Source: a virus. Taken from it: a stretch of 64,000 nucleotides of DNA. The stretch lies in the IMG/VR virus record IMGVR_UViG_3300044646_001937, positions 1 to 64,000 of that record; one strand, written 5' to 3'. Below are positions 43,107-64,000 of this stretch, in pieces. Numbering within the stretch: position 1 is the stretch's first letter; every line of letters begins with the position of its first letter. The notes below the pieces were generated by a model. The model was not told where the DNA came from and ran no database searches. It saw only the letters and a list, made by a program, of their open reading frames with translations. A program made the position numbers and the translations under genes.

Positions 43107-43490
43107 CTAGGAATCGTGTCTTTTTATAATTTCAATTTTTTCCTCAGGATCTACCTGCTCTTCATTTGATATATAGTAGTTCATCTCTTTCTCATTATAT
43201 GTCTCTTTACTGTCTGGCTCGACCTCCATGTCTGCTTCAGCTTGTGCGGCATCCACATCTTTTCTTGCGCCTCTGAAAACAGATCTTACCGAATCATCGT
43301 ATACTTTATCTACAACCAACAGTTCACTAGTACCTACTTCACCCAGAAACAACCCTTGCTTGGGTTTAGTTAGAGAGTGCTCTACACAAGTCCAAAGATG
43401 TTGCGGAATTCCGAGCATTTCAAGTGCCTCTACGCGCTCTGCAGGTATCTTTTTTCCGCTTACTACGCATTTATATACCTTTTTAGCCAT
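43107..43490 (-). CDS. Hypothetical protein, 127 aa
   Basis: N-terminal VYKCVVSGKKIPAERVEAL has a short possible zinc-finger-like Cys pair (CVVSG ... WTCVEHS) and is followed by acidic residues. Directly adjoins the portal gene, overlapping it by 8 nt, so it may be a portal-associated protein. Not recognised. Confidence 0.68.
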   Translation of the reverse strand: MAKKVYKCVVSGKKIPAERVEALEMLGIPQHLWTCVEHSLTKPKQGLFLGEVGTSELLVVDKVYDDSVRSVFRGARKDVDAAQAEADMEVEPDSKETYNEKEMNYYISNEEQVDPEEKIEIIKRHDS

Positions 43491-45258
43491 TTTGCTGTGC
43501 TCCTTGTGCTGCTTGTTGTTTTGCCCCTTGCAGACCTTGTGATCTTGATTGAGAGCTCATCTGCTCTAGCTGTGCTTTCACCTGTGCATATAGATCTTGA
43601 TCTTGTCCCTTGATTTGCTGCAATTGTGCTCTTCGTTGAGCGCCGTCTAGGGGGAATAGCTGCTGAGCTATCTGCTGAGCTTGCTCTAGAGCATCCTGAG
43701 GTGTACCGCCACCCTGAGGCATACCACCTCCGCCCTGCTGACCGCCCTGTTGCTGTCCTTGTAGCATCTGCATGAGATTTTGGTTTGTGGCCTGCTCAAG
43801 CTCTTGCTTCTCTTTCTCTTCTTCCTGAATCTGCTGCGTAATCTTATCTTCTTCCATCTTCTTACGCACCTGATCTTCATAGTCAAAGTTGTATAGCTTG
43901 AGAAGCTCGCTTCTAGCAATAGCGTTAGCCGAAACCAGCTGACTGATAACAGATTTACGATCCATATCATCTGAGAACGTGATAGGAATCAATGTAATCT
44001 TGGCTTTTGGCAGCCCCATAATATTGCCCACCACCTCACCAATATGCTGAAGCAGGATATTATAGTTATTAGGCACAACACTCCATGCGTTTTCAAACAT
44101 GCGAAGCATAGGACCTGCCGCCTGCTGCTGAAATGTCATCTGAAACATCTCTACAGGCACATCAAGAGCATTCAATATAGAGTTTTTAGCGTTTTCCATC
44201 ATCTCAGCTGGAGCTAGCTTTGTACCTTCGCCTCCAAGCTGCTGATAGTTTAATGGAAATGGGAATTTATGATACGAACCAGGGTCTCTTCTGTGTTCCT
44301 CGATCATAGAGTCTACAGCACTGGTCCAAACAGCTCCGTTTTGGTTTAGCAATGGGTTAGCGGCTGGGTTATTAGCGTCTCCCATGGATATAACCCTAAA
44401 TGGAGCAATATCCTCAAAGCAGATTACTTCATTATAGCGCTTCAATGTTTGAAGCATGAAGAAATCTTCAAATATAAACATAGCAGGAGGTACAGCTTTG
44501 CCATCTGTTCTAATGGTGCTAGGCGTATCTAGCTTTAAATGCACAAAGTTCTTTGTGTTAAACGCCAGCATCGTCTTATTCTGTACACACTCAAATATTA
44601 CTTGAGGTGTTTTCTTGCTATAGAATTTATTATTTTTAGTAGTAATCTTTTTACCGTACTGTTGAGGGATGTCCCAGAAATACTCAGACTCTCCTGTAGT
44701 TTCTTCATGTCTGATCTTAATCTCTTTAGCAGGCCAATGAACTACATGTATCTTATCCGGGTCAGCAGCAGGTTTATCTACACACTCATGCTGTCCTTTA
44801 TAGCTACATTTAAGGCAAGTCATCACGTACTTGCTCTTGTTAAACTCATAATTATCCAGTTTATCAATATTAGATGCCTTCTTACACTGAGGGCATACCA
44901 GATATCTATAGAACCCTTGGTTTACAGTAACAAACTCGTTACCATAGGCCAAAAGATTCAACCCTGCCTTAGAGCATACCTGTTTCCATTTCAGTTTTTC
45001 CAAAATGTCAGTGTATGCCTTCTTAGCTTCTTCATCATCGCAATCTATAGACAGTGAGGTAATGAAGTAATTGGCAATACGGTTCAATGCTTGCTTGTAA
45101 AAACCGTTTCTAAAAAGGAAATGCTCAGCCCAAAGCAGCATGCCTTCAATATTCATCGGCAAATACTGCAAAGGAATATTATAGAATGGGTTGGAATATC
45201 TGTCTCTACCGTTATCTCCTATTTTAAAATAACTCTGCGGATCGTCTGGTGTAGTCAT
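43483..45258 (-). CDS. Portal protein with a zinc-ribbon insertion
   Basis: 591 residues. Portal-like features: LLWAEHFLFRNGFYKQALNRIANYF near the start, an NEVICFEDIAPFRVISMG wing region, LNALDVPVEMFQMTFQQQAAGPMLRM and a stem-like C-terminal coiled coil followed by a Gln/Gly-rich tail. Residues 122-151 carry CPQC ... CLKC, a Cys4 zinc-binding insert that is unusual for portals. The Gln/Gly-rich end (about 130 residues) is low complexity. Located with lysis genes on the minus strand. Confidence 0.8.
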   Translation of the reverse strand: MTTPDDPQSYFKIGDNGRDRYSNPFYNIPLQYLPMNIEGMLLWAEHFLFRNGFYKQALNRIANYFITSLSIDCDDEEAKKAYTDILEKLKWKQVCSKAGLNLLAYGNEFVTVNQGFYRYLVCPQCKKASNIDKLDNYEFNKSKYVMTCLKCSYKGQHECVDKPAADPDKIHVVHWPAKEIKIRHEETTGESEYFWDIPQQYGKKITTKNNKFYSKKTPQVIFECVQNKTMLAFNTKNFVHLKLDTPSTIRTDGKAVPPAMFIFEDFFMLQTLKRYNEVICFEDIAPFRVISMGDANNPAANPLLNQNGAVWTSAVDSMIEEHRRDPGSYHKFPFPLNYQQLGGEGTKLAPAEMMENAKNSILNALDVPVEMFQMTFQQQAAGPMLRMFENAWSVVPNNYNILLQHIGEVVGNIMGLPKAKITLIPITFSDDMDRKSVISQLVSANAIARSELLKLYNFDYEDQVRKKMEEDKITQQIQEEEKEKQELEQATNQNLMQMLQGQQQGGQQGGGGMPQGGGTPQDALEQAQQIAQQLFPLDGAQRRAQLQQIKGQDQDLYAQVKAQLEQMSSQSRSQGLQGAKQQAAQGAQQNG

Positions 45259-54104: not shown

Positions 54105-56696
54105 ATGTTCAATCTCGTACAATTTCTACAAAAAAGAGCAGCATCTTCAGGAATACAACCCCTAAAAGAAAAAATAGCTCCTCAAGAGATTAAAGGTATA
54201 GCTCCTGTCGAACAGCTTGGTAAGGTGCCAGAGATTAAGAAAATCGACGAACCAGTAGAGTCTCTCACATCGGCTATTACAGATAAACCTCTTAAGAAGA
54301 TAGCCTATGCTAGGAATACAGGGTTGGCTGATTGTGATGGTTTTCCCTATACTAACACTTACGATGTACTCTTATTAAATAAACTAGGCTACAGTATAGA
54401 TGAGAATAGTTATCTGTTTCTTCCTAGAGGACAAGAAAAAGAAGGTTTGTACTCGTATATAGAAAAGAATGCTGGTGTGCCCAAGATCGTTACTAGAGCT
54501 ATTGATGAAGGAAAAGCGTTCAGTAGTGAGTATCTCAAGAGCATGGATTATAATGTACCAAAGGGTTATGAGATCAAAGGTGATCTATGTTGTCCTGTTG
54601 AGAAGACTAGAAAAGAGGAAAAAGAGTCTCCTGAGAAGACTGCTGTGTTGGGTGCAAAAAATTCAATAAAGCTGATTCCTAAAAACGAAAGAACTTCGTT
54701 AATTCGCTCATACAGAAAACTGTTAGAAAAACAGGATCCAGCAAATAAAAAAGCAATTAGAGCGGCTATGGGGGCCTCGCAAAAGGGTTTAAAGCAGCCA
54801 AAAATAGTTAATATAAATGATAAGCCTCACATACTGCACTACAGAGGAGTCGCAGATAACAATATATCATTATTACAAAAAAACAAGAATTACCAAAAAA
54901 ATAAACCGCTTAAAGATATAGATTATGAGCAACACGTTGTAGATAGTCTATCAGATGGAAAAAATTTATTAATGAGTACCTCTACCGATCCTATGGTTGC
55001 AAAAGGATGGTCTACCCGGCACGGGCAGCGTCCTTCGGGTTATGTAGGTACATATGCTACACCTTTAGAAGACTTAGCTAGATTGCAAAAAACTAAACAA
55101 CAAGGCGCAATGGTTAATAAAACTCCTACAGAGCAAGAAATAACCATAGCCGATGGTGGCAACTTGTTAAAAGCTGCGCCTGTGATGACCGGGTTTACAC
55201 CTAGAAGAGGGCCTGGCTACAGATTAAGAAATACTGAAAAATCGATAGTTTATCCTAAAAAAATAGGGGTTAATTTTTTAGATAAATTAAAAAATGCGCT
55301 AGGGTTAGGTAAGACTGCTGCAGCCGACCCTAGCGCACTAGTGGTCTCAGGTATTCATGGAGACGAGCCTGCTGGAAACATGGCCGCAAAGAAACTAGAG
55401 GACCATGTGGATGTGGTATCTGAAATAAACCCCTCCAATAAACGCAGATTCAGGGGGAAAGACATCAACAGACACTTTGATAAACCTTCAGCAGGAAAGA
55501 AGCAAAAAAACCTATTAGATATTATAAAAGAAAAGAAACCTAGCAGGGTGATATCTCTCCACGAGGACAACGAGGCGGATAAGCCTTATGCGTACAGTTC
55601 AGAGTCTTTAAAAGAAGAAACTAAAGAAGCTTTAAAAGATAAAGATACTGCAGCTAGTGCGCATGGAGACGAGACAGACAATGGAGTAATATCCAAAGGC
55701 AAGAATCCTCCAGACGGTTCTCTAGAGAAAGCTTTAGACAACAGAGGCATAGACAGAGTTACAGTAGAAACTCCAAGTAAAAGCCAGGATATAGATCAGA
55801 GGGTAAAGACTCAACTAGATGTAGTAAAAGGTTTGTTAGATAAAACCAGCGCAGCCACTCACGAACTCAAGAGCTCTAACATCAAAGCTGTAGGATATAA
55901 CAAAGAGGACAAAAGCCTGGACGTAGCTTTCCATAGTGGCGGTAGCTATACCTACAAAGATGTACCCAAGAGTTTGTTTGATCGTATTAAACGGGTAAAG
56001 AGTCCAGGCAAATTCTTCCATAAACATATTAAAAGAGATAACTCTTATAAGTATGAAAAGATGGAAAAAGATTCAGAGTACAAATGGTATAAGAGTAAAG
56101 ATCTCAGTCAGCGTTTGGTAGCTGGCAGACCGTATCCATTTTCATACCTAACAGGAGAAGCTAAAGAACTGTTGGATGCTGTTAAAAATCGAGACTGGGA
56201 AAACTTTAAAGAAGAAGTGGGTGATACCAGCTTTGGAGCTCAAATGCTATTATCTCAAGCTACAGGATTAAATCACCCTGTGTACGCTGATTTGAGTAAA
56301 GCTTGGGCTAGAGAAAAAGTTTGGAAAGATATGTTTAAAGAGAAAGGTAAAGAATACCATCCAAATCATATGCAGGGAGGAAGTAATTACGCCAAGGCTA
56401 GCAAGATTATTAAAGCATTTGCTAGCGCCGGCATTAAAGTAGATCAGCGTGAAGCTGAGCGGTTGGCTAATAAATATACCGGAGGTAAGATGGAAAAGGA
56501 GGCAAGCAAGCAACCACTACTGCCAGGTATTAGGAAATGGATTAAAACCCAACCATTCAACCATGCTGAAGACGCTTATAAGCATGGAAGAATACCCAAG
56601 CACGTAAGAGATGATGTTGTTAGCGGTAGAGCTGCTGAGAAATATAGACCAAAATTTAAAGAAATGCTAGATAATATAAGAAATTCTGGAACATAA
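54105..56696 (+). CDS. Five-domain protein: N-terminal unknown, ART, M14-like, KTSC, MazG-like
   Basis: 863 residues. 60-165: unknown domain (LFLPRGQEKEGLY). ~190-350: ADP-ribosyltransferase R-S-E pattern, LHYRGV (R247), STSTDP (S291) and EQEI (E343, E345). ~410-570: succinylglutamate desuccinylase/M14-like metallohydrolase, GIHGDEPAGN (H418, E421), ISLHEDNE (H486) and VTVETP (E555). ~587-645: KTSC domain, AVGYNKEDKSLDVAF and GKFFHKHI. ~675-740: MazG-like, YLTGEAKEL and EEVGDTSF (EExxE and ExxD). Last ~70 residues: helical tail. Linkers contain KTA/KTSA (KTAVLGA, KTAAADP, KTSAATH). The combination of toxins and nucleotide-acting domains is unusual and could act on host components on injection. 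Confidence 0.82.
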   Translation: MFNLVQFLQKRAASSGIQPLKEKIAPQEIKGIAPVEQLGKVPEIKKIDEPVESLTSAITDKPLKKIAYARNTGLADCDGFPYTNTYDVLLLNKLGYSIDENSYLFLPRGQEKEGLYSYIEKNAGVPKIVTRAIDEGKAFSSEYLKSMDYNVPKGYEIKGDLCCPVEKTRKEEKESPEKTAVLGAKNSIKLIPKNERTSLIRSYRKLLEKQDPANKKAIRAAMGASQKGLKQPKIVNINDKPHILHYRGVADNNISLLQKNKNYQKNKPLKDIDYEQHVVDSLSDGKNLLMSTSTDPMVAKGWSTRHGQRPSGYVGTYATPLEDLARLQKTKQQGAMVNKTPTEQEITIADGGNLLKAAPVMTGFTPRRGPGYRLRNTEKSIVYPKKIGVNFLDKLKNALGLGKTAAADPSALVVSGIHGDEPAGNMAAKKLEDHVDVVSEINPSNKRRFRGKDINRHFDKPSAGKKQKNLLDIIKEKKPSRVISLHEDNEADKPYAYSSESLKEETKEALKDKDTAASAHGDETDNGVISKGKNPPDGSLEKALDNRGIDRVTVETPSKSQDIDQRVKTQLDVVKGLLDKTSAATHELKSSNIKAVGYNKEDKSLDVAFHSGGSYTYKDVPKSLFDRIKRVKSPGKFFHKHIKRDNSYKYEKMEKDSEYKWYKSKDLSQRLVAGRPYPFSYLTGEAKELLDAVKNRDWENFKEEVGDTSFGAQMLLSQATGLNHPVYADLSKAWAREKVWKDMFKEKGKEYHPNHMQGGSNYAKASKIIKAFASAGIKVDQREAERLANKYTGGKMEKEASKQPLLPGIRKWIKTQPFNHAEDAYKHGRIPKHVRDDVVSGRAAEKYRPKFKEMLDNIRNSGT
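56664..56689 (+). repeat. 26-bp repeat, copy 1
   Basis: ATGCTAGATAATATAAGAAA and the rest through TTCTGG recurs at 58564 with one change; here it encodes MLDNIRNSG at the end of the 863-aa protein. Confidence 0.7.
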
Positions 56697-56728
56697 ATCC
56701 CGGTAATAAATTATTTAAATATTTGTGG

Positions 56729-56734
56729 TATAAT
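56729..56734 (+). promoter_or_regulatory. TATAAT -10 box with leaderless start
   Basis: GGTATAATTATTTG with the ATG 8 nt after the box, so a transcript would begin at or one base from the ATG at 56743. Confidence 0.55.
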
Positions 56735-56742
56735 TATTTGTG

Positions 56743-57216
56743 ATGACTAACTTAACTAAAAAAGTGTACATCGAAACAGTGAAATACCTAAAAGACTTGG
56801 GCGTCAAAATACCTGAGCATGAAGTATTTTTTAAGGATAGTTACAGCTGTTCTTATGTAGAGAGGTCCTGGTACGAGATTAATCTGGTGCTGGGGAAATA
56901 TATAACCAACAGAACTGCTAGAAGATTTGTTATGCATGAACTGGTGCATGTAATAGCAGCCCAAAAAAGACTACCAGTCAAATACCGTAAACAGAAAAGT
57001 ATATCCGAGAAATTACCACTTCATTGGCTTTCAGGTCTTCCTGATATAATAAGGCCTTGTGGATATGCTTCTTGGTATGGTAAACTAAGCAATGGTGAAG
57101 AAGCGTTGGCAGAGCTTTTAGGCTGGGTTTATTCTAATGGAAACTTTGGAGAAACTCAGGTACCTGAAGATCTGGCTATCGACTATGAAAAAGCTTTTAA
57201 CTGGTTAAAAAAATAA
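56743..57216 (+). CDS. Zinc metalloprotease-like protein (HExxH)
   Basis: 157 residues. Contains FVMHELVHVIAAQ (HExxH, about residues 65-73) and, downstream, NGEEALAELLGW with a Glu that could be the third zinc ligand, as in gluzincins. ATG 8 nt after a TATAAT box. Possible roles are virion protein processing or host-cell digestion; not established. Confidence 0.72.
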   Translation: MTNLTKKVYIETVKYLKDLGVKIPEHEVFFKDSYSCSYVERSWYEINLVLGKYITNRTARRFVMHELVHVIAAQKRLPVKYRKQKSISEKLPLHWLSGLPDIIRPCGYASWYGKLSNGEEALAELLGWVYSNGNFGETQVPEDLAIDYEKAFNWLKK

Positions 57217-57290
57217 AAACTAAAAAGCTTTAGAGAAAAAAAGCTTTTAACTGGTTAAAAAAATAAAAACTAAAAAGCTTTAGAGAAATC
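57191..57290 (+). repeat. 50-bp tandem duplication over the gene end and terminator
   Basis: Bases 57191-57240 and 57241-57290 are the same apart from their last two to three bases. The unit covers the last codons and stop of the protease gene (NWLKK-stop) and the first half of the terminator hairpin. Confidence 0.85.
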
Positions 57291-57320: not shown

Positions 57321-58574
57321 ATGAATCCAAAATTAAAACCAATATATAATAAGTTAAGAAAAATAATAAATCCTAATTTTGAGAATGGCGTTTTTGGTTC
57401 TGAATTTGCGGGTAAAGCTCGCGAAAAGGGGTTAAGGCTGGTGGAGAACATTATGAGCGATGCCAAGCCTGGGCAATATGTGCAATGGGCCGAACAATTG
57501 GTTAGTAGCAAAGATCCAATACGCCAAAGATTAGGGAAAGTAATGCAAAATATGTTTGCACAGGAAGGAGATCTTAAGACTCATTTTGGTAAAACTCCTA
57601 TTAACGTAAACCCAGTAGACAACAATCCGCATCACTTAAAAGATCTAGCTAAAGAAACTTTAACAAGTAAAAAAGTTAAAGATAACATTGGTGATTTTTC
57701 AGAAGATAAACTGCGTGAGTCTGAATTTTTTCCACATATAGGTCAAACAGAAAGTCTTTATCAATATCTAGATCCTACAAGCAAAAAAAAGCTTACTGCA
57801 ATTTTACAAGAAAAATTTCCTGACGGATATATTGTTAAAAAAAGAAATGCCTCTAACAGTATAGGCAGTCGGGGAAAAAAAGATGCTAAAATATTTTTTT
57901 CAGGAGATCAAAACATTTCTAGTCTAGATAAAATTAAACCCCATCAATTAGACGACTGGATAATTCAGCCAGATAAAAAATTAAAACAAGTAAACCCATT
58001 ATTGCGTAAAATAGATAAAAAGTTTTTTCCTGATAGAGGTACAGGAGCTGATGAATATCGCGTAACAGTTTTAAACGGTAAAGTTGTTCCTTACGCTACA
58101 AAACATAGAGGAAGCTACGCCACAAATATAGCTCAAAGCATATTACCTTTTAGAACACCTGAAATTAGAAAAGTTGAAAGATATGCCCAAGAAGCTTTGG
58201 ATGCTGCACAGCCAGATGCAAGAAAAGGCCATTATGCTTTTGATGTTGGTTTTAACGCAGCTAAAAAACCTACACTAGTAGAAACAAATCCAGGTTATGG
58301 ATCTGTTAACGGACTATATTTTTCAGATCCTACAATACCTGACGCTATAAGAGCTAACATTCAAGAAAAATTACCGTATCATGTGTTAGCCAGAAGAGCA
58401 TTATGGGGTACAGCTGCGCTTGGAGGAGTGGCTGCCGCTGGGGCCGGGGCCTATGGTGCTTCAAAATTGGCCATGTGCAGCGAAGACTACCAGGAGGGGT
58501 TTTTGAAAAGAGCTAGCGAATATGGGTTTGATCAAGAGCAAGCTGTATGGCTGATCAACAGATATGCTGGATAA
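57321..58574 (+). CDS. ATP-grasp-like protein with membrane helix and C-terminal KRA module
   Basis: 417 residues. The N-terminal ~150 residues are helical. About 170-335 resemble an ATP-grasp fold: GYIVKKRNASNSIGSRG, DDWIIQPDKK, DEYRVTVLNGKVVPYATK and HYAFDVGFNAAKKPTLVETNPGYGS, with the Asp and E-x-N metal ligands. A hydrophobic Gly/Ala segment (RALWGTAALGGVAAAGAGAYG) is at ~355-378. The last 29 residues, DYQEGFLKRASEYGFDQEQA onwards, are the same module found at the N-terminus of seven downstream proteins. Substrate unknown. Confidence 0.68.
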   Translation: MNPKLKPIYNKLRKIINPNFENGVFGSEFAGKAREKGLRLVENIMSDAKPGQYVQWAEQLVSSKDPIRQRLGKVMQNMFAQEGDLKTHFGKTPINVNPVDNNPHHLKDLAKETLTSKKVKDNIGDFSEDKLRESEFFPHIGQTESLYQYLDPTSKKKLTAILQEKFPDGYIVKKRNASNSIGSRGKKDAKIFFSGDQNISSLDKIKPHQLDDWIIQPDKKLKQVNPLLRKIDKKFFPDRGTGADEYRVTVLNGKVVPYATKHRGSYATNIAQSILPFRTPEIRKVERYAQEALDAAQPDARKGHYAFDVGFNAAKKPTLVETNPGYGSVNGLYFSDPTIPDAIRANIQEKLPYHVLARRALWGTAALGGVAAAGAGAYGASKLAMCSEDYQEGFLKRASEYGFDQEQAVWLINRYAG

Positions 58575-58621: not shown

Positions 58622-58990
58622 ATGGAGCCTCCCAAATCAATAGACTTAAAACAGTATGGTATCGACGTTGGTCTATTGATCAGTGGCTTGTTTGGGGCAA
58701 TACTTCTCACTAGTAAAGGCTCAGCCAACAACCTACCCAGAACCATAAGCAGTCTCGTAGGTGGCGCAGCAAGTGCTAACTATATTACGCCTATTGTAGT
58801 AACTGTGGCTAAGTTGGATGACAGCCACTATCATTATGGTATAGCTTTTCTTTTGGGGTTTTTGGGATTAAAGGGTATTGAGTATTTTAGTAAAAAGTTA
58901 ATTCCTGATCATAAAGAAGAGGAAGAGGTTAAGCCTATTAGAAAGCCAAGAGCTAGAAGAACAACTAAACCCAAAACTAAAACAATATGA
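58622..58990 (+). CDS. Holin-like or virion membrane protein, 122 aa
   Basis: Hydrophobic segments at about residues 15-31, 43-60 and 75-92 with a basic C-terminal tail (PRARRTTKPKTKTI). It shares this tail with the 59368 protein. Could be a holin or a small virion membrane protein. Leaderless-type promoter just upstream. Four-nt overlap with the following gene. Confidence 0.65.
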   Translation: MEPPKSIDLKQYGIDVGLLISGLFGAILLTSKGSANNLPRTISSLVGGAASANYITPIVVTVAKLDDSHYHYGIAFLLGFLGLKGIEYFSKKLIPDHKEEEEVKPIRKPRARRTTKPKTKTI

Positions 58991-59046
58991 ACACACAAGA
59001 ACAAGCGTACGTTGAAGGATTCGTAAAAAGAGCAATGGAATATGGC
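58957..59046 (+). repeat. 90-bp direct repeat, copy 1
   Basis: Covers the tail of the 58622 gene and the start of the 58987 gene. Only two mismatches to copy 2 at 59691. It spans a gene junction, so it reflects duplication of a two-gene unit. Confidence 0.88.
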
Positions 59047-59364
59047 TACAGTCAAGATGAGGCTGTAGAACTACTAAAAGAAGCAAATGCGTTGACTAGA
59101 GCTTTAGCTAGAGGTGCTGTAAAGCCTTCTACTGCAGCCAAAAGATTAAGTGAACTCTACGGGCACAGTAATGCTAATATTCAAAACGTAAGCGTACCCA
59201 CTATCGAACATATAATTAAACACAATACCCCAGGTCTTGGAGTGCACCCAGGAGTTTTACTAGGGCCAGGAGCAGCAGGGAAAAGATATAGAGATCAGCT
59301 TGGTGCTCAAGAAGATTTGCAGCACATTAGGCACTGGATAAAAAATCCAGAACAATTTAGATAA
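58987..59364 (+). CDS. KRA-module protein 1, 125 aa
   Basis: N-terminal 33 residues carry YVEGFVKRAMEYGYSQDEAV and the Leu/Lys continuation; the rest is a small unrecognised domain (KRLSELYGHSNANIQ). The module is discussed under findings as a possible virion-targeting tag. Overlaps the preceding gene by 4 nt. Confidence 0.72.
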   Translation: MNTQEQAYVEGFVKRAMEYGYSQDEAVELLKEANALTRALARGAVKPSTAAKRLSELYGHSNANIQNVSVPTIEHIIKHNTPGLGVHPGVLLGPGAAGKRYRDQLGAQEDLQHIRHWIKNPEQFR

Positions 59365-59367
59365 ACT

Positions 59368-59724
59368 ATGACCCACCTAACCCTAGTCAATGTAATAGCT
59401 AATAGCACCACTGCGTTTAGTGGGCTTGGCTTGTTAATTCATATATTTGGAGATCCTGATAACAGTATCTGGAATAACAGGATGAAAGCTGCTCTGGCTA
59501 AGCTAGGCTTAAGTATTACTACATGTGGTGCTGTAGCTAACTGTATTACACTATCAGCTCCTCCTCCAACCGAAGTTGTACTCAACGTAGGAATTGCTGT
59601 TACATTCTTTTGGCTAAACTGGTGGCAGTTTGAGATGTTTAAAGCTATGCAAAAATCTCACAATGAGTTAAAATCTAAAAAAACCACTAAAAGAACAACT
59701 AAACCCAAAACTAAAACAATATGA
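59368..59724 (+). CDS. Holin-like membrane protein, 118 aa
   Basis: Three hydrophobic segments (about residues 5-24, 42-62, 70-90) and the basic tail RTTKPKTKTI, matching the tail of the 58622 protein, though the rest differs. Presumably the product of an old duplication followed by divergence or replacement of the body. Confidence 0.65.
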   Translation: MTHLTLVNVIANSTTAFSGLGLLIHIFGDPDNSIWNNRMKAALAKLGLSITTCGAVANCITLSAPPPTEVVLNVGIAVTFFWLNWWQFEMFKAMQKSHNELKSKKTTKRTTKPKTKTI

Positions 59725-59780
59725 ACACACAAGAACAAGCATACGTTGAAGGATTCGTAAAAAGAGCCATGGAATATGGC
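59691..59780 (+). repeat. 90-bp direct repeat, copy 2
   Basis: Matches 58957-59046 at all but two positions and lies over the same kind of junction (membrane protein tail to KRA-module start). Confidence 0.88.
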
Positions 59781-60068
59781 TATTCAGAAGATGGGGCTGT
59801 GCAGTTAGCCAAAGAAGCAATGCGAGGCGCAGCTGCTGCTAAACTTGCGATTGGACTCAAAGACAAAGGGCTAGGTGAGTATGCGGTGCGCGCCGGGCGT
59901 GTAAATATCCCAGGCAGAGGGACGCCAGACACGCAGAGATTGGCTGAACTCTTACGTCAAATAAAAGCACATGAGAAAACCTTACCTACAGATTCATCCT
60001 TTTCTCTCGGCCGTGTAAATCTAAAACATCTTGATAACAAGAATGAAGCTTTACGTATGATGCTATAG
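59721..60068 (+). CDS. KRA-module protein 2, 115 aa
   Basis: Starts MNTQEQAYVEGFVKRAMEYG as protein 1; the remaining ~80 residues (LGEYAVRAGRVNIPGRG, TPDTQRLAELLRQIKAHEK) differ. Hence the N-terminal module is shared and the cargo domain is not. Function of the cargo domain unknown. Confidence 0.7.
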   Translation: MNTQEQAYVEGFVKRAMEYGYSEDGAVQLAKEAMRGAAAAKLAIGLKDKGLGEYAVRAGRVNIPGRGTPDTQRLAELLRQIKAHEKTLPTDSSFSLGRVNLKHLDNKNEALRMML

Positions 60069-60105
60069 TCTCATTTAATTTCCATGACCGACTAACCTAA
60101 TCAAT

Positions 60106-60432
60106 ATGACTACAGAACAAGCATACATTGAAGGATTCGTCAAAAGAGCAGCTGAGTACGGTTTTAATGACGAAGAGGCATTTGAAATTCTCAAAGAGGC
60201 TGCAAAAAAAGGTGCACCAAAAGCAGAGCCAGGTTTTAAAAATGACCTTAAAAGATGGGCGAACAATATTAAGGCTAACGCAGAAATTGCTGGCGCTCCC
60301 ACTGAAATCAAACTGAGAGAAGGTGCAAAAAAATTAAAAGAAAAGATGAGAGAAGGAGCAACATCTAGCAAAGATAAACTTAAAAATATCGCTTCAAAAG
60401 GTTTAAAAACAATAGGAAGATTTAAAAGGTAA
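60106..60432 (+). CDS. KRA-module protein 3, 108 aa
   Basis: YIEGFVKRAAEYGFNDEEAF at residues 6-25, followed by a Lys/Ala/Glu-rich basic region (GAKKLKEKMREGATSSKDKL). Likely disordered or DNA-binding; internal virion proteins often look like this. Confidence 0.68.
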   Translation: MTTEQAYIEGFVKRAAEYGFNDEEAFEILKEAAKKGAPKAEPGFKNDLKRWANNIKANAEIAGAPTEIKLREGAKKLKEKMREGATSSKDKLKNIASKGLKTIGRFKR

Positions 60433-60454
60433 TATTGCCCCATATCAAATAATC

Positions 60455-60652
60455 ATGAACACACAAGAACAAGCATACATCAATGGCTTTGTTAAAAGAG
60501 CTAGTGAATGTGGCTTTTCAAACGAAGAAGCTTTAGAGCTGTTGAAGACTAGCAGATGCTGGGAAGGCTATGAGCCTGTTCCTGGTAAAAAGCCATACTC
60601 TAACGACAGCTGCAGACCTAAGGGTAGTAAGCCTAAAGATAGCTCTAAATAA
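60455..60652 (+). CDS. KRA-module protein 4 with a CWxGY-type tail, 65 aa
   Basis: MNTQEQAYINGFVKRASECG start, then CWEGYEPVPGKKPYSNDSCR, a short Cys-containing motif also seen in phage proteins of unknown function. It may bind metal or be a disulfide-containing peptide. Very short. Confidence 0.68.
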   Translation: MNTQEQAYINGFVKRASECGFSNEEALELLKTSRCWEGYEPVPGKKPYSNDSCRPKGSKPKDSSK

Positions 60653-60656
60653 CTAG

Positions 60657-61106
60657 ATGCGGCTAGCTAGTGTTAGATGCGGTATATGCGATAAGGTATG
60701 GCGTGAGCCTTCTCAAAGAATGAGAGAAGGCAAGACCTGCAGTAAAACATGTAGCAGTATCAAAGGCTACCTGAGTGGGGATAGGAAAGAAACAGGTATC
60801 GAACTCAAGCTACAAAGCTTGCTTGTAGATATGCAGATTGAGTTTATTACGCAAAAACCAATCTTAGGTGTAACTATAGCCGATATATTCATCTATCCTA
60901 ATGTAGCTCTATTTGCTGATGGTAAGTATTGGCATCACAGTACTGAGAAGCAGGAGCACAAAGACAGGTCTATTACTCAAAAGCTAAAAAAAGGCGGGTA
61001 TATAGTTTTAAGGCTTGAAGAGGATGAAATAAATAAAGATATTGAAACTGTAAGAAAGAAAGTGACTCATGCATACAGTTGTCGTAAAATAGAAAAGAAA
61101 CTTTAA
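60657..61106 (+). CDS. Vsr-like (PD-(D/E)XK) endonuclease with zinc finger, 149 aa
   Basis: N-terminal RCGICDKVWREPSQRMREGKTCSKTC gives a Cys4 zinc finger. Residues ~55-130 (ELKLQSLLVDMQIEFITQ, then ADIFIYPNVALFADGKYWHH and GGYIVLRLEEDEI) match the Vsr/DUF559 nuclease fold, with the metal-binding Asp in VTIADIF. Free-standing versions in phages include homing endonucleases of the I-Bth0305I type. It interrupts a row of virion-type genes, so it may be mobile. No intron was seen. Confidence 0.72.
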   Translation: MRLASVRCGICDKVWREPSQRMREGKTCSKTCSSIKGYLSGDRKETGIELKLQSLLVDMQIEFITQKPILGVTIADIFIYPNVALFADGKYWHHSTEKQEHKDRSITQKLKKGGYIVLRLEEDEINKDIETVRKKVTHAYSCRKIEKKL

Positions 61107-61122
61107 ACAACCTACCAAACCT

Positions 61123-61395
61123 ATGGATATTCTAGACAAGTTGATAGCAAGCTCTAGCGATTTACATACTGTAGTTCCTCAAAACATTAACATATATTTC
61201 GATACTTTAAGAACTCCTGAAGAGAACGAGGAATATCAAAGACAGCTAGCAGAAGCTGCAAAAAAAGAATCAATGGAAGCTGCAAAGAAACATCTAGAAA
61301 AACTGATAGAGAATAACAAAATTGTCGATGAACAGACTAATGCTGTACTAAGCCCAGATTCAAAAGGAGTACCATTCGTAGATTTAATCTTCTAG
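61123..61395 (+). CDS. Hypothetical protein, 90 aa
   Basis: Helical with EKEENEEYQRQLAEAAKKESMEAAKKHLEKL-like alanine-rich coiled-coil (about residues 33-68, only described here). Not recognised. Confidence 0.58.
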   Translation: MDILDKLIASSSDLHTVVPQNINIYFDTLRTPEENEEYQRQLAEAAKKESMEAAKKHLEKLIENNKIVDEQTNAVLSPDSKGVPFVDLIF

Positions 61396-61397
61396 TC

Positions 61398-61754
61398 ATG
61401 CCATTCAAATCAAACGCTCAAAGAAGATGGATGTACGCTAACGAGCCAGAAATGGCTAAAAAATGGAGCGAGCATACACCCAAAGGAGCTAAACTTCCAG
61501 AACACGTAAAACATAAAAAAGCACATATGAACACACAAGAACAAGCATACATCAACGGATTCCTCAAAAGAGCTAGCGAATATGGTCTCTCTGAAGAGCA
61601 GGCAATTGCTATCTATAAACAAGCAATGGTAGAGCCTAGCTTGATGGGTAAGAAAGCTCCAATGAAGCCTACCACTCCTGCTAAACCAGTTCTTCCTAAG
61701 AAGCCAATGATCCCTAACGAGGCAGATCAAAACGACGTTGCAGGATATAGATAA
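61398..61754 (+). CDS. KRA-module protein 5, with an internal module, 118 aa
   Basis: Begins MPFKSNAQRRWMYANEPEMA, a start I recognise from small virion-associated phage proteins, and the KRA module (AYINGFLKRASEYGLSEEQA) appears at about residues 50-69, i.e. internal. The C-terminal part is Pro/Lys-rich. So two small tags are joined in one protein. Confidence 0.68.
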   Translation: MPFKSNAQRRWMYANEPEMAKKWSEHTPKGAKLPEHVKHKKAHMNTQEQAYINGFLKRASEYGLSEEQAIAIYKQAMVEPSLMGKKAPMKPTTPAKPVLPKKPMIPNEADQNDVAGYR

Positions 61755-61759
61755 CATAT

Positions 61760-62446
61760 ATGAACAAAGAAACCGCATACGCAAAAGGTTTCATTAAAAG
61801 AGCAGTCGAAAACGGCTACTCTGAAAATGAGGCTATTAATCTTTTAAAAGAGTCTGGCGTCATTAATGACATTGGATCAAGACTGGCTACTGGCGCAAAA
61901 GACTTTTTTCAAGAAAACATTAAAGACCCTGTTAGAGATGTTAGAGAAGGGTTAGCAAATGTTTTTGATCCTAATACTGATGCTGGTTTTACTGATGCTT
62001 GGGGCAACAGTGCTTTTCGAAGAGCTGACAACCTACAAAGCGATGCTTTTAATAAAGCTACTGAAGGATTAAAAAACACATTTAAGTTGCCTGAACATAT
62101 TGCCAGATATGGACAAAATAATCTAAAGCCTGAAGATACAATCAAAGCTGTGCAAGATACGTATCAGGGTAAATATGATACGGACGTATTCAATAGAGAG
62201 CATCCTACGCTTGCAGGTATAGGCAAATGGCTCACAGAGCATAACATTAATCCTCAGCATGCCGCTCTAGCTGCTGGTGGTGCAGGATTGTTAGCAGGTG
62301 GATATGGTTTGGCTAAATTGCTTGGTAACAATAAACCTAAAGAAGAAGAACAAGAACAAGAACCTATGGATCCTAGAATGTTTATGTCGCCGCCTCCCCC
62401 TCCACCGCAACCGCAAAGAGGACCATACAATATAGTATTTAATTAA
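61760..62446 (+). CDS. KRA-module protein 6 with C-terminal membrane helix, 228 aa
   Basis: AYAKGFIKRAVENGYSENEAINLLKE at the start, a helical body, a Gly/Ala hydrophobic segment (AALAAGGAGLLAGGYGLAKLL) at about residues 176-196 and a Pro-rich tail (EPMDPRMFMSPPPPPP). The hydrophobic segment resembles that of the ATP-grasp-like protein. Virion or membrane protein. Not recognised. Confidence 0.7.
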   Translation: MNKETAYAKGFIKRAVENGYSENEAINLLKESGVINDIGSRLATGAKDFFQENIKDPVRDVREGLANVFDPNTDAGFTDAWGNSAFRRADNLQSDAFNKATEGLKNTFKLPEHIARYGQNNLKPEDTIKAVQDTYQGKYDTDVFNREHPTLAGIGKWLTEHNINPQHAALAAGGAGLLAGGYGLAKLLGNNKPKEEEQEQEPMDPRMFMSPPPPPPQPQRGPYNIVFN

Positions 62447-62447
62447 T

Positions 62448-63308
62448 ATGAACACACAAGAACAAGCATATCTAAACGGGTTCATTAAAAAAGCTGCAAG
62501 CTATGGTGTAGACGCAGATACTGCGTTTGCTATACTAAAGATGGCTAATGATGGTCCTCAGCTAATAAGTGGAGGTGGGAGTCTTATAAATTCGTCAACC
62601 TCTAAACCAACGCCAGAACCAACAAGTTTAACTGGACTTAAAGGATCAGGTACAGGAATGATGGCTCCAGGAAACGGATTTGAAAGAGGGTTTAAAAACA
62701 TGATGGAAAGCTTTAGACCTGCACCTAAACCTATCAGTGGTGGAAGCTCTTTTGCGTCAGCGCCAGCTCAGCAATCTGCAGCCCCTGCAGGACCTTCCAG
62801 CAAACCAGGAACTGGCGGCCTGATAGATACGTCAGGAAAATTGACGCTTACACCTAATAGTCCAATCTCAACTACAACTCCGTTAATTCAAGGTGGCGCT
62901 AGTACGTTTGCAAGCAATCAAGGAACTCTTCCCCAAGCCTCTACACCTAAACCTAGTCAGTCTGCAGCAGGCATGAATGAGGGGTTGGCTTCACATATGC
63001 ATCTTAATGAGTTGCCAGCACAACCAGCAGCACCAGCTCAACAACCGCAGCAACCAGCAGCTCAACCTAGCGCTGGACCTAGTGACGCTTTCTTAAGAAA
63101 GATTATGGGAAGCTATGATCCTAACAGTAAAGTAGACAGAGCTCAAGCAGATAGGGTGAGACAGTTATATGCTCAAGGCAAAACAACTGCAAAGGATATC
63201 TACGGTTCTCCTGAGTATCAAATAAACAGAGAAGCTCTAGGAGCTAGAAAAGGAGCCAACAGATCTGCGTATAGCGGATTAAAGCCTGCTCCTGGCATTC
63301 CTAGATAA
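62448..63308 (+). CDS. KRA-module protein 7, Pro/Ser/Gln-rich, 286 aa
   Basis: AYLNGFIKKAASYGVDADTAFAIL at the N-terminus, followed by a low-complexity Pro/Ser/Ala/Gln region and a basic C-terminal part (RQLYAQGKTTAKDIYGSPEY). TAA-T-ATG start. Likely disordered virion-associated protein. Confidence 0.7.
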   Translation: MNTQEQAYLNGFIKKAASYGVDADTAFAILKMANDGPQLISGGGSLINSSTSKPTPEPTSLTGLKGSGTGMMAPGNGFERGFKNMMESFRPAPKPISGGSSFASAPAQQSAAPAGPSSKPGTGGLIDTSGKLTLTPNSPISTTTPLIQGGASTFASNQGTLPQASTPKPSQSAAGMNEGLASHMHLNELPAQPAAPAQQPQQPAAQPSAGPSDAFLRKIMGSYDPNSKVDRAQADRVRQLYAQGKTTAKDIYGSPEYQINREALGARKGANRSAYSGLKPAPGIPR

Positions 63309-63368: not shown

Positions 63369-64000
63369 ATGTTTAAAGAAGCAATAGATGTCAAAAATCT
63401 TCCAGCATATGAGATGTATTCTGACAGCTCATATCCTACGAAGACTATTGAAAATCCATATCTGAGAACATTAGCTCATGTTGCTTTTGGAAATAACATA
63501 GCACCATTTAGAAGAGATGGTGAAGACATGCGAGACGCTATGCTTAGAAGAGATAGAAGTATAGACCTTGCCAAATTGAAAGGTAAATCACTACTCACAA
63601 ACCCTATAGTAGAAGCTACCGGTATTAGCGAAAAGCTTTCACCTCTGACGGGAGGAAATATGAACAAAGCTATAAACAATTTGCATGAAAATTTAGCAGG
63701 TACTAACACTATGGGAGCATTTAAACAGCAATCAGCTAACGATGTAGAGGATACTATGGAAGCTTTAAAAAGTAATATATACAAAAAAGCTTTTCAGGTG
63801 ATAGAAGCTTCCACACCCACAGCTCATGGGTTTAAATTTCTGTCAGATACTATGGGAAGAGTAGGGGGGTTGCCGACTGCCTTGATGGTTGGGCAGGAAA
63901 AAACATTAGACATGCTGGGTAACCCAACTAGAAAAGATTTTAATAGTCAATTATCACACCTTCAAGCTGACCGAAGATTGAAAAACACTGTATTGAGATT
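63369..64000 (+). CDS. Virion-type hypothetical protein, partial at the window end
   Basis: Open frame of 210 codons from the ATG with no stop before base 64000. Soluble; blocks such as NPYLRTLAHVAFGNNIAPFRR and GDDMRDAMLRRDRS are helical. It follows the KRA-module row, so it is likely a structural or assembly gene. The rest lies outside the window. Confidence 0.62.
   Translation, partial: MFKEAIDVKNLPAYEMYSDSSYPTKTIENPYLRTLAHVAFGNNIAPFRRDGEDMRDAMLRRDRSIDLAKLKGKSLLTNPIVEATGISEKLSPLTGGNMNKAINNLHENLAGTNTMGAFKQQSANDVEDTMEALKSNIYKKAFQVIEASTPTAHGFKFLSDTMGRVGGLPTALMVGQEKTLDMLGNPTRKDFNSQLSHLQADRRLKNTVLR

Follow-up and report, generated by a model that had tools for sequence, protein, structure and literature searches.

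Module-bearing genes of the window

The window analysed here is a 64-kb stretch (positions 1 to 64,000 of IMG/VR virus record IMGVR_UViG_3300044646_001937) of a 204,454-bp phage contig, whose genome is labelled G000. Between 57321 and 63308, eight open reading frames (ORFs) of this window share a protein module of about 30 residues, with the consensus Y-x-x-G-F-x-K-R-A-x-E-Y-G-x-S-x-x-E-A-x-x-L-L-K-x-A; proteins that carry it are called tagged below. The window was searched for the module with a regular expression and with hidden Markov models (HMM), and both agree with the original prediction, made from the letters of the window, on number and placement: six ORFs (58987, 59721, 60106, 60455, 61760 and 62448) have the module at the N-terminus, 61398 has it internally and 57321 at the C-terminus. 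The same searches gave no copy in the replication part of the window (1-40 kb), and scans of the window's tagged proteins against Pfam and PHROG gave no family for the module.

All eight genes are on the + strand. The first (57321..58574) encodes an R2K-like ATP-grasp protein of 417 amino acids (aa), whose match to PF18299 (R2K_2) has an E-value of 1.3e-5, just under the cut-off. In this protein a Gly/Ala-rich hydrophobic helix is followed by K-L-A and then by the C-terminal module copy (58482..58571, + strand; DYQEGFLKRASEYGFDQEQAVWLINRYAG), which places the K-x-A (SKLA) on the N-terminal, i.e. cargo, side. N-terminal modules are found in a 125-aa protein (58987..59364; module 58987-59085, ending in LLKEA), a 115-aa protein (59721..60068; module 59721-59819, ending in LAKEA), a basic protein of 108 aa (60106..60432; module 60106-60201, ending in ILKEA) and a 65-aa protein with a C...C tail (60455..60652; module 60455-60553, ending in LLKTS), which clusters with tagged proteins of four relatives once its module is removed. 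The internal copy (61527-61625) lies in a 118-aa protein (61398..61754), with K-K-A before it and Y-K-Q-A after it; the N-terminal stretch of this protein resembles the DUF3008 proteins of relatives. The last two genes encode a 228-aa protein with a Gly/Ala-rich helix (61760..62446; module 61760-61855, ending in LLKES) and a Pro/Ser-rich protein of 286 aa (62448..63308; module 62448-62546, ending in ILKMA). That the remainders of these proteins differ from one another had been noted from the letters and holds, but some of the traits then given are those of module-free ORFs in between, namely the membrane-like products of 58622 and 59368 and the Cys-containing, nuclease-like product of 60657. 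The latter is a 149-aa ORF (60657-61106) between tagged genes that contains Cys pairs together with a nuclease-like pattern.

Tagged proteins were also collected across the phage records. There are 63 tagged accessory proteins, 57 of them with the tag near the N-terminus, and masking the tag leaves 43 families, of which 33 are singletons; a few of the 63 probably belong to a conserved late ORF family of about 80 aa (described below) and are not cargo. Because most of the relatives come from one clade, with major capsid proteins (MCPs) that are 82-97% identical, these counts do not represent independent events, and only the G000 clade showed tags on diverse cargo. Among relatives, the remainders that can be identified are DUF6321 and DUF3008, the latter (PF11450) matched by tagged proteins of two of them; in the window, it is the R2K-like ATP-grasp.

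The scaffold-position protein and its counterparts

Extending the search to the rest of the genome and to related phages gave four further module copies in the 204 kb genome, outside the window, and the same arrangement in related records. Two of these copies are in a 376-aa acidic protein (134687-135817), encoded between the genes of the head-maturation protease and the MCP; the third is in a 139-aa ORF at 137327, just 5' of the MCP gene. The fourth copy, which is divergent, belongs to a late ORF of 79 aa (144776-145015, i.e. L026:2776-3015) beside the presumed tail sheath gene. The window had been taken to hold the cargo set: eight tagged ORFs are indeed located there, but further tagged genes are found close to the MCP gene. 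The acidic ORF of about 80 aa by the tail sheath is conserved in relatives, where its divergent module ends in K-R-A or K-Q-A, and its product is possibly a small core protein.

The protease gene (133187-134629), directly before the gene of the 376-aa protein, matches phrog_18299 (E 2.4e-9). The MCP gene, at 138426, encodes a protein with 28% identity over 97% to the MCP of Salmonella phage Arash (phrog_2522, E 0.0015); a PDB sequence search with the MCP and the protease as queries gave no relative. From its position, acidity, repeats and synteny, the 376-aa protein is presumed to be the capsid scaffold, and it is referred to here as the scaffold-position protein. Such a protein with 2-3 modules (units) is present in 14 of 14 loci examined, this phage included. 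It has an acidic start, a first unit placed after K-S/T-A, often an EF-hand-like loop, a second unit usually placed after E-K-T-A, and often a C-terminal Gly/Ala-rich helix. Profiles of the accessory tags and of the scaffold units within the clade match at an hhalign probability of 99.0% (E 9.6e-18), which makes the two homologous. In the scaffold-position protein, and likewise in several tagged proteins, the module is followed by an EF-hand/dockerin-like loop, LDVDKDGKIEASDL (L025:12687-13817, L058:10001-10384, L061:9992-10516 and L062:3653-4780).

The scaffold protein of locus L068 was modelled with AlphaFold (13 sequences; mean predicted local distance difference test, pLDDT, of 58). Its unit 1 is a helix-turn-helix (residues 168-180 and 185-212) with a pLDDT of about 90, with K166-S167 of KSA at a helix break, and unit 2 resembles unit 1 with a pLDDT of 70-80. 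The module, modelled on these scaffold units, is predicted to be a helix-turn-helix hairpin, in line with the helix pair proposed originally. Scaffold unit 1 ends in YDQAL instead of LLKQA; since the K is missing there, the C-terminal K appears dispensable for the hairpin itself.

More distant counterparts were found in phage Arash and Vibrio phage D69. The window's portal-like protein (43483..45258, - strand), which matches the Arash portal with an E-value of 1e-39 and phrog_64 with 0.0036, places the phage near these two. Arash gp223 and its D69 counterpart have three tandem shorter units at their C-terminal end, and their gene position matches that of the scaffold-position protein of the clade. 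Comparison of clade scaffold units with Arash/D69 units gave an hhalign probability of 91.9% and a score of 27.7, whereas the controls, 100 column shuffles and windows of the protease alignment, scored no higher than 12.4 and 18.8, respectively. No Arash-type units were found as tags on Arash proteins besides gp223 and gp225, and a scan with the D69 unit protein as query gave no match. Mass spectrometry of the Arash virion lists Gp222 (protease homologue), Gp223 (the unit protein) and the MCP Gp226 (PMC10585845 Table 2); its authors consider carry-over possible for some detected proteins (PMC10585845).

Two observations concern the protease. The top-scoring protease window against Arash/D69 units (18.8) corresponds to residues ~440-480 of the G000 protease (133187-134629; ISKEAA...YKLAALRY...NKLDEDT), and this C-terminal region may be a degenerate unit. 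In IMGVR_UViG_3300027777_000023, the protease gene (L071:3802-6360) has a long insertion after MAAKVAYDK, which starts with CFVAGTLVETTDG and looks like an intein.

The K-x-A motif and a predicted loading mechanism

The cargo-side end of the module is K-x-A or K-x-S, with no Glu site. K-x-A occurs within residues 24-42 in 50 of the 57 N-terminally tagged proteins, versus 14 by shuffling (maximum 23 in 1000 shuffles). In the C-terminal tag copy the K-x-A comes before the module, most internal copies are flanked by it on either side, and 30 of 35 scaffold units have it before them. The extended form [ILVMFY].K.A, i.e. [hydrophobic]-x-K-x-A, is enriched 5-6 fold in the head proteins of three lineages, with 42 sites observed versus 9.0 expected in this phage, 38 versus 6.0 in Arash and 35 versus 5.6 in D69; the residue that follows it is enriched in Ser/Ala in the Arash and D69 head proteins. 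In the head and tail region with modules masked, 55 sites were counted versus 24.5 expected. The non-virion proteins of Arash have 14 versus 15.1 expected, the cargo bodies beyond the tag have 7 versus 12.8, and the reversed motif A-x-K shows no excess. Plain K-x-A is not enriched in the window between 46 and 64 kb (43 versus 43.2 expected), where only the [ILVFM].K.A form is enriched, partly owing to the modules. K-x-A is also conserved in the N-terminal arm of the MCP (down to 28% identity) and near the N-terminus of the protease. These distributions suggest that K-x-A is a site of the maturation protease. Two Arash virion proteins encoded outside the head cluster, gp242 (174466-175335) and gp97 (55924-57243), contain 8 and 5 [hydrophobic]-x-K-x-A motifs, respectively, and are candidates for head-packaged, processed proteins.

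We consider it probable that the module is a scaffold-derived capsid-loading tag which is cut off by the maturation protease. The analysis shows the homology of tags and scaffold units, the gene positions, the diversity of the cargo, the enrichment and placement of the motif and a predicted helical hairpin; that the proteins are packaged, what the tag binds, that K-x-A is cut and that cargo is ejected are inferred. Tagged proteins would be made late in infection and would co-assemble with the scaffold through the scaffold units' own contact (either mutual or with a shared partner, for example the shell), and would thereby be trapped inside the prohead. The maturation protease would then cut where the tag meets the cargo, after [hydrophobic]-x-K-x-A, which means behind an N-terminal tag, before a C-terminal tag and on both sides of an internal tag, the scaffold and the propeptides being degraded at the same motif. 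The freed cargo would remain in the head and be ejected with the DNA. The original prediction of a tag that guides diverse cargo to the virion, on the model of the T4 capsid-targeting sequence (CTS), gains indirect support from the scaffold homology (14 loci), the Arash virion mass spectrometry and the cargo-side K-x-A. We also lean, if only slightly, towards the broader view that the lineage as a whole combines an interchangeable scaffold-derived hairpin tag, usable at either end or internally, with a protease of new specificity ([hydrophobic]-x-K-x-A) that removes it.

Several points weigh against the loading-tag reading. In Arash and D69 the units occur only in the scaffold-position protein and neighbouring proteins, with no N-terminal cargo tags; cargo verified by mass spectrometry is therefore absent, and the virion evidence concerns the scaffold-position protein only. 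The copy beside the presumed tail sheath gene indicates that the module is perhaps not restricted to the head. With respect to the motif, the MCPs of the clade and some scaffold sites have an acidic or polar residue before x-K in place of a hydrophobic one, K-R-A is also present inside the module, the motif shuffles preserve composition only, and K-x-A could instead be a helix-capping or binding feature. The AlphaFold model of the protease had a pLDDT of 44 and was not used.

Four other explanations were weighed. The module might be a docking handle that brings substrates to the maturation protease, with packaging secondary, and the flanking of modules by the presumed cleavage motif, as well as the location of the scaffold-position gene immediately after the protease gene, would fit such a role. 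We regard it as unlikely, since the MCP and other K-x-A-rich head proteins have no module, so that the protease would not need one, and since 2-3 units in the scaffold-position protein suit an assembly contact better. It is a little less probable still that the module acts as an all-purpose interaction domain gathering tagged late proteins in a non-virion complex, for instance at the membrane: the homology to units of the scaffold-position protein, the presence of the Arash counterpart in the virion (PMC10585845) and the placement rule of K-x-A all speak against it, while the Gly/Ala-rich or hydrophobic helices of some tagged proteins and the divergent copy adjoining tail genes are in its favour.

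A third explanation, which we judge very improbable, treats the shared stretch as a tract of recombination or gene conversion by which accessory ORFs are shuffled, with little function as protein. It would account for the module DNA of 58987 and 59721, which is near-identical including 30 bp upstream (position 58957 is 30 bp 5' of 58987, the first ORF with an N-terminal module, and those 30 bp recur before 59721). The other copies, however, differ at many synonymous positions, so the module is conserved as protein and not only as DNA, and the protein is kept in diverged phages, in the scaffold and also where the module is internal or C-terminal. Finally, chance or a common amphipathic helical pattern of unrelated proteins is scarcely credible even for so short and helical a unit, because the HMM E-values of 1e-14 to 1e-23 per genome exclude chance and the copies are confined to late or accessory regions. 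A common bacterial helical domain, named with the original prediction as something that would speak against it, was likewise rejected: no relative of the module turned up when 84,980 bacterial and archaeal species genomes were scanned, and no Pfam or PHROG family matches it.

If the broader, lineage-wide view is true, which proteins these phages package and inject could be read from sequence alone. Outside T4, little is understood of how large phages select the proteins that enter the head, and in giant phages most head-packaged proteins have no known targeting signal. The loading-tag reading would yield a sequence-readable loading signal linked to the scaffold protein, a candidate protease motif that can be checked against the Arash mass spectra already recorded, and some 60 candidate injected proteins, mostly of unknown function.

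Two further ORFs of the window were noted. The ORF at 54105-56696 encodes an 863-aa multidomain protein with a weak AstE/AspA-like match, KTSC and MazG, in which K-T-A or K-T-S stands directly before the AstE-like and KTSC stretches; it looks like a polyvalent packaged protein. The stretch 63369-63998 holds the start of an ORF that resembles the N-terminus of a 1203-aa tape-measure-like protein encoded at 149155 in the same genome, of which it is a possible duplicate.

Comparison with known systems

Among the nearest known systems are Arash gp223 and its D69 equivalent, which share with the scaffold-position protein of the clade the gene position, the repeated units and the K-x-A flanks, but whose units are about one helix turn shorter and in whose phages N-terminal cargo tags were not found.

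Phage polyvalent proteins (Iyer et al. 2017) are multidomain effectors thought to be packaged and injected (PMC5512222). The window's 863-aa KTSC/MazG protein and its ATP-grasp protein resemble them; polyvalent proteins are defined by their effector domains, whereas the tagged proteins are small separate proteins with a common loading tag.

In SPN3US and phiKZ, head and ejection proteins have propeptides that are cut by the prohead protease (gp245), often with several copies of the motif (PMC5694885, PMC10052503), and these giant-phage propeptides may act like the T4 CTS (PMC5694885, PMC10052503). Cutting of head proteins at one repeated motif, which is predicted for the present phage, is the point in common. 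The propeptides mostly exceed 100 residues and do not form a single shared module, their motif is A-x-E or S-x-E, and a counterpart of the T4 scaffold is unconfirmed in those phages.

In T4, the CTS is a propeptide of 10-19 residues that loads the internal proteins IPI-III and Alt into the prohead core and is removed by the protease gp21, which cuts after Glu (PMC9026906, PMC5694885). Like it, the module is a short element common to otherwise unrelated, fast-changing proteins (here 43 families), with predicted loading into the prohead core and predicted removal at a maturation-protease motif. In contrast to the T4 CTS, the module has about 30 residues and is a predicted helical hairpin, shares homology with the repeats in the scaffold-position protein, can occupy either end or the interior of a protein, and has its predicted cut at [hydrophobic]-x-K-x-A. 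By analogy, the module would work like a CTS, whereas the published length and cutting site of the T4 CTS set it apart from homologous members of that family.

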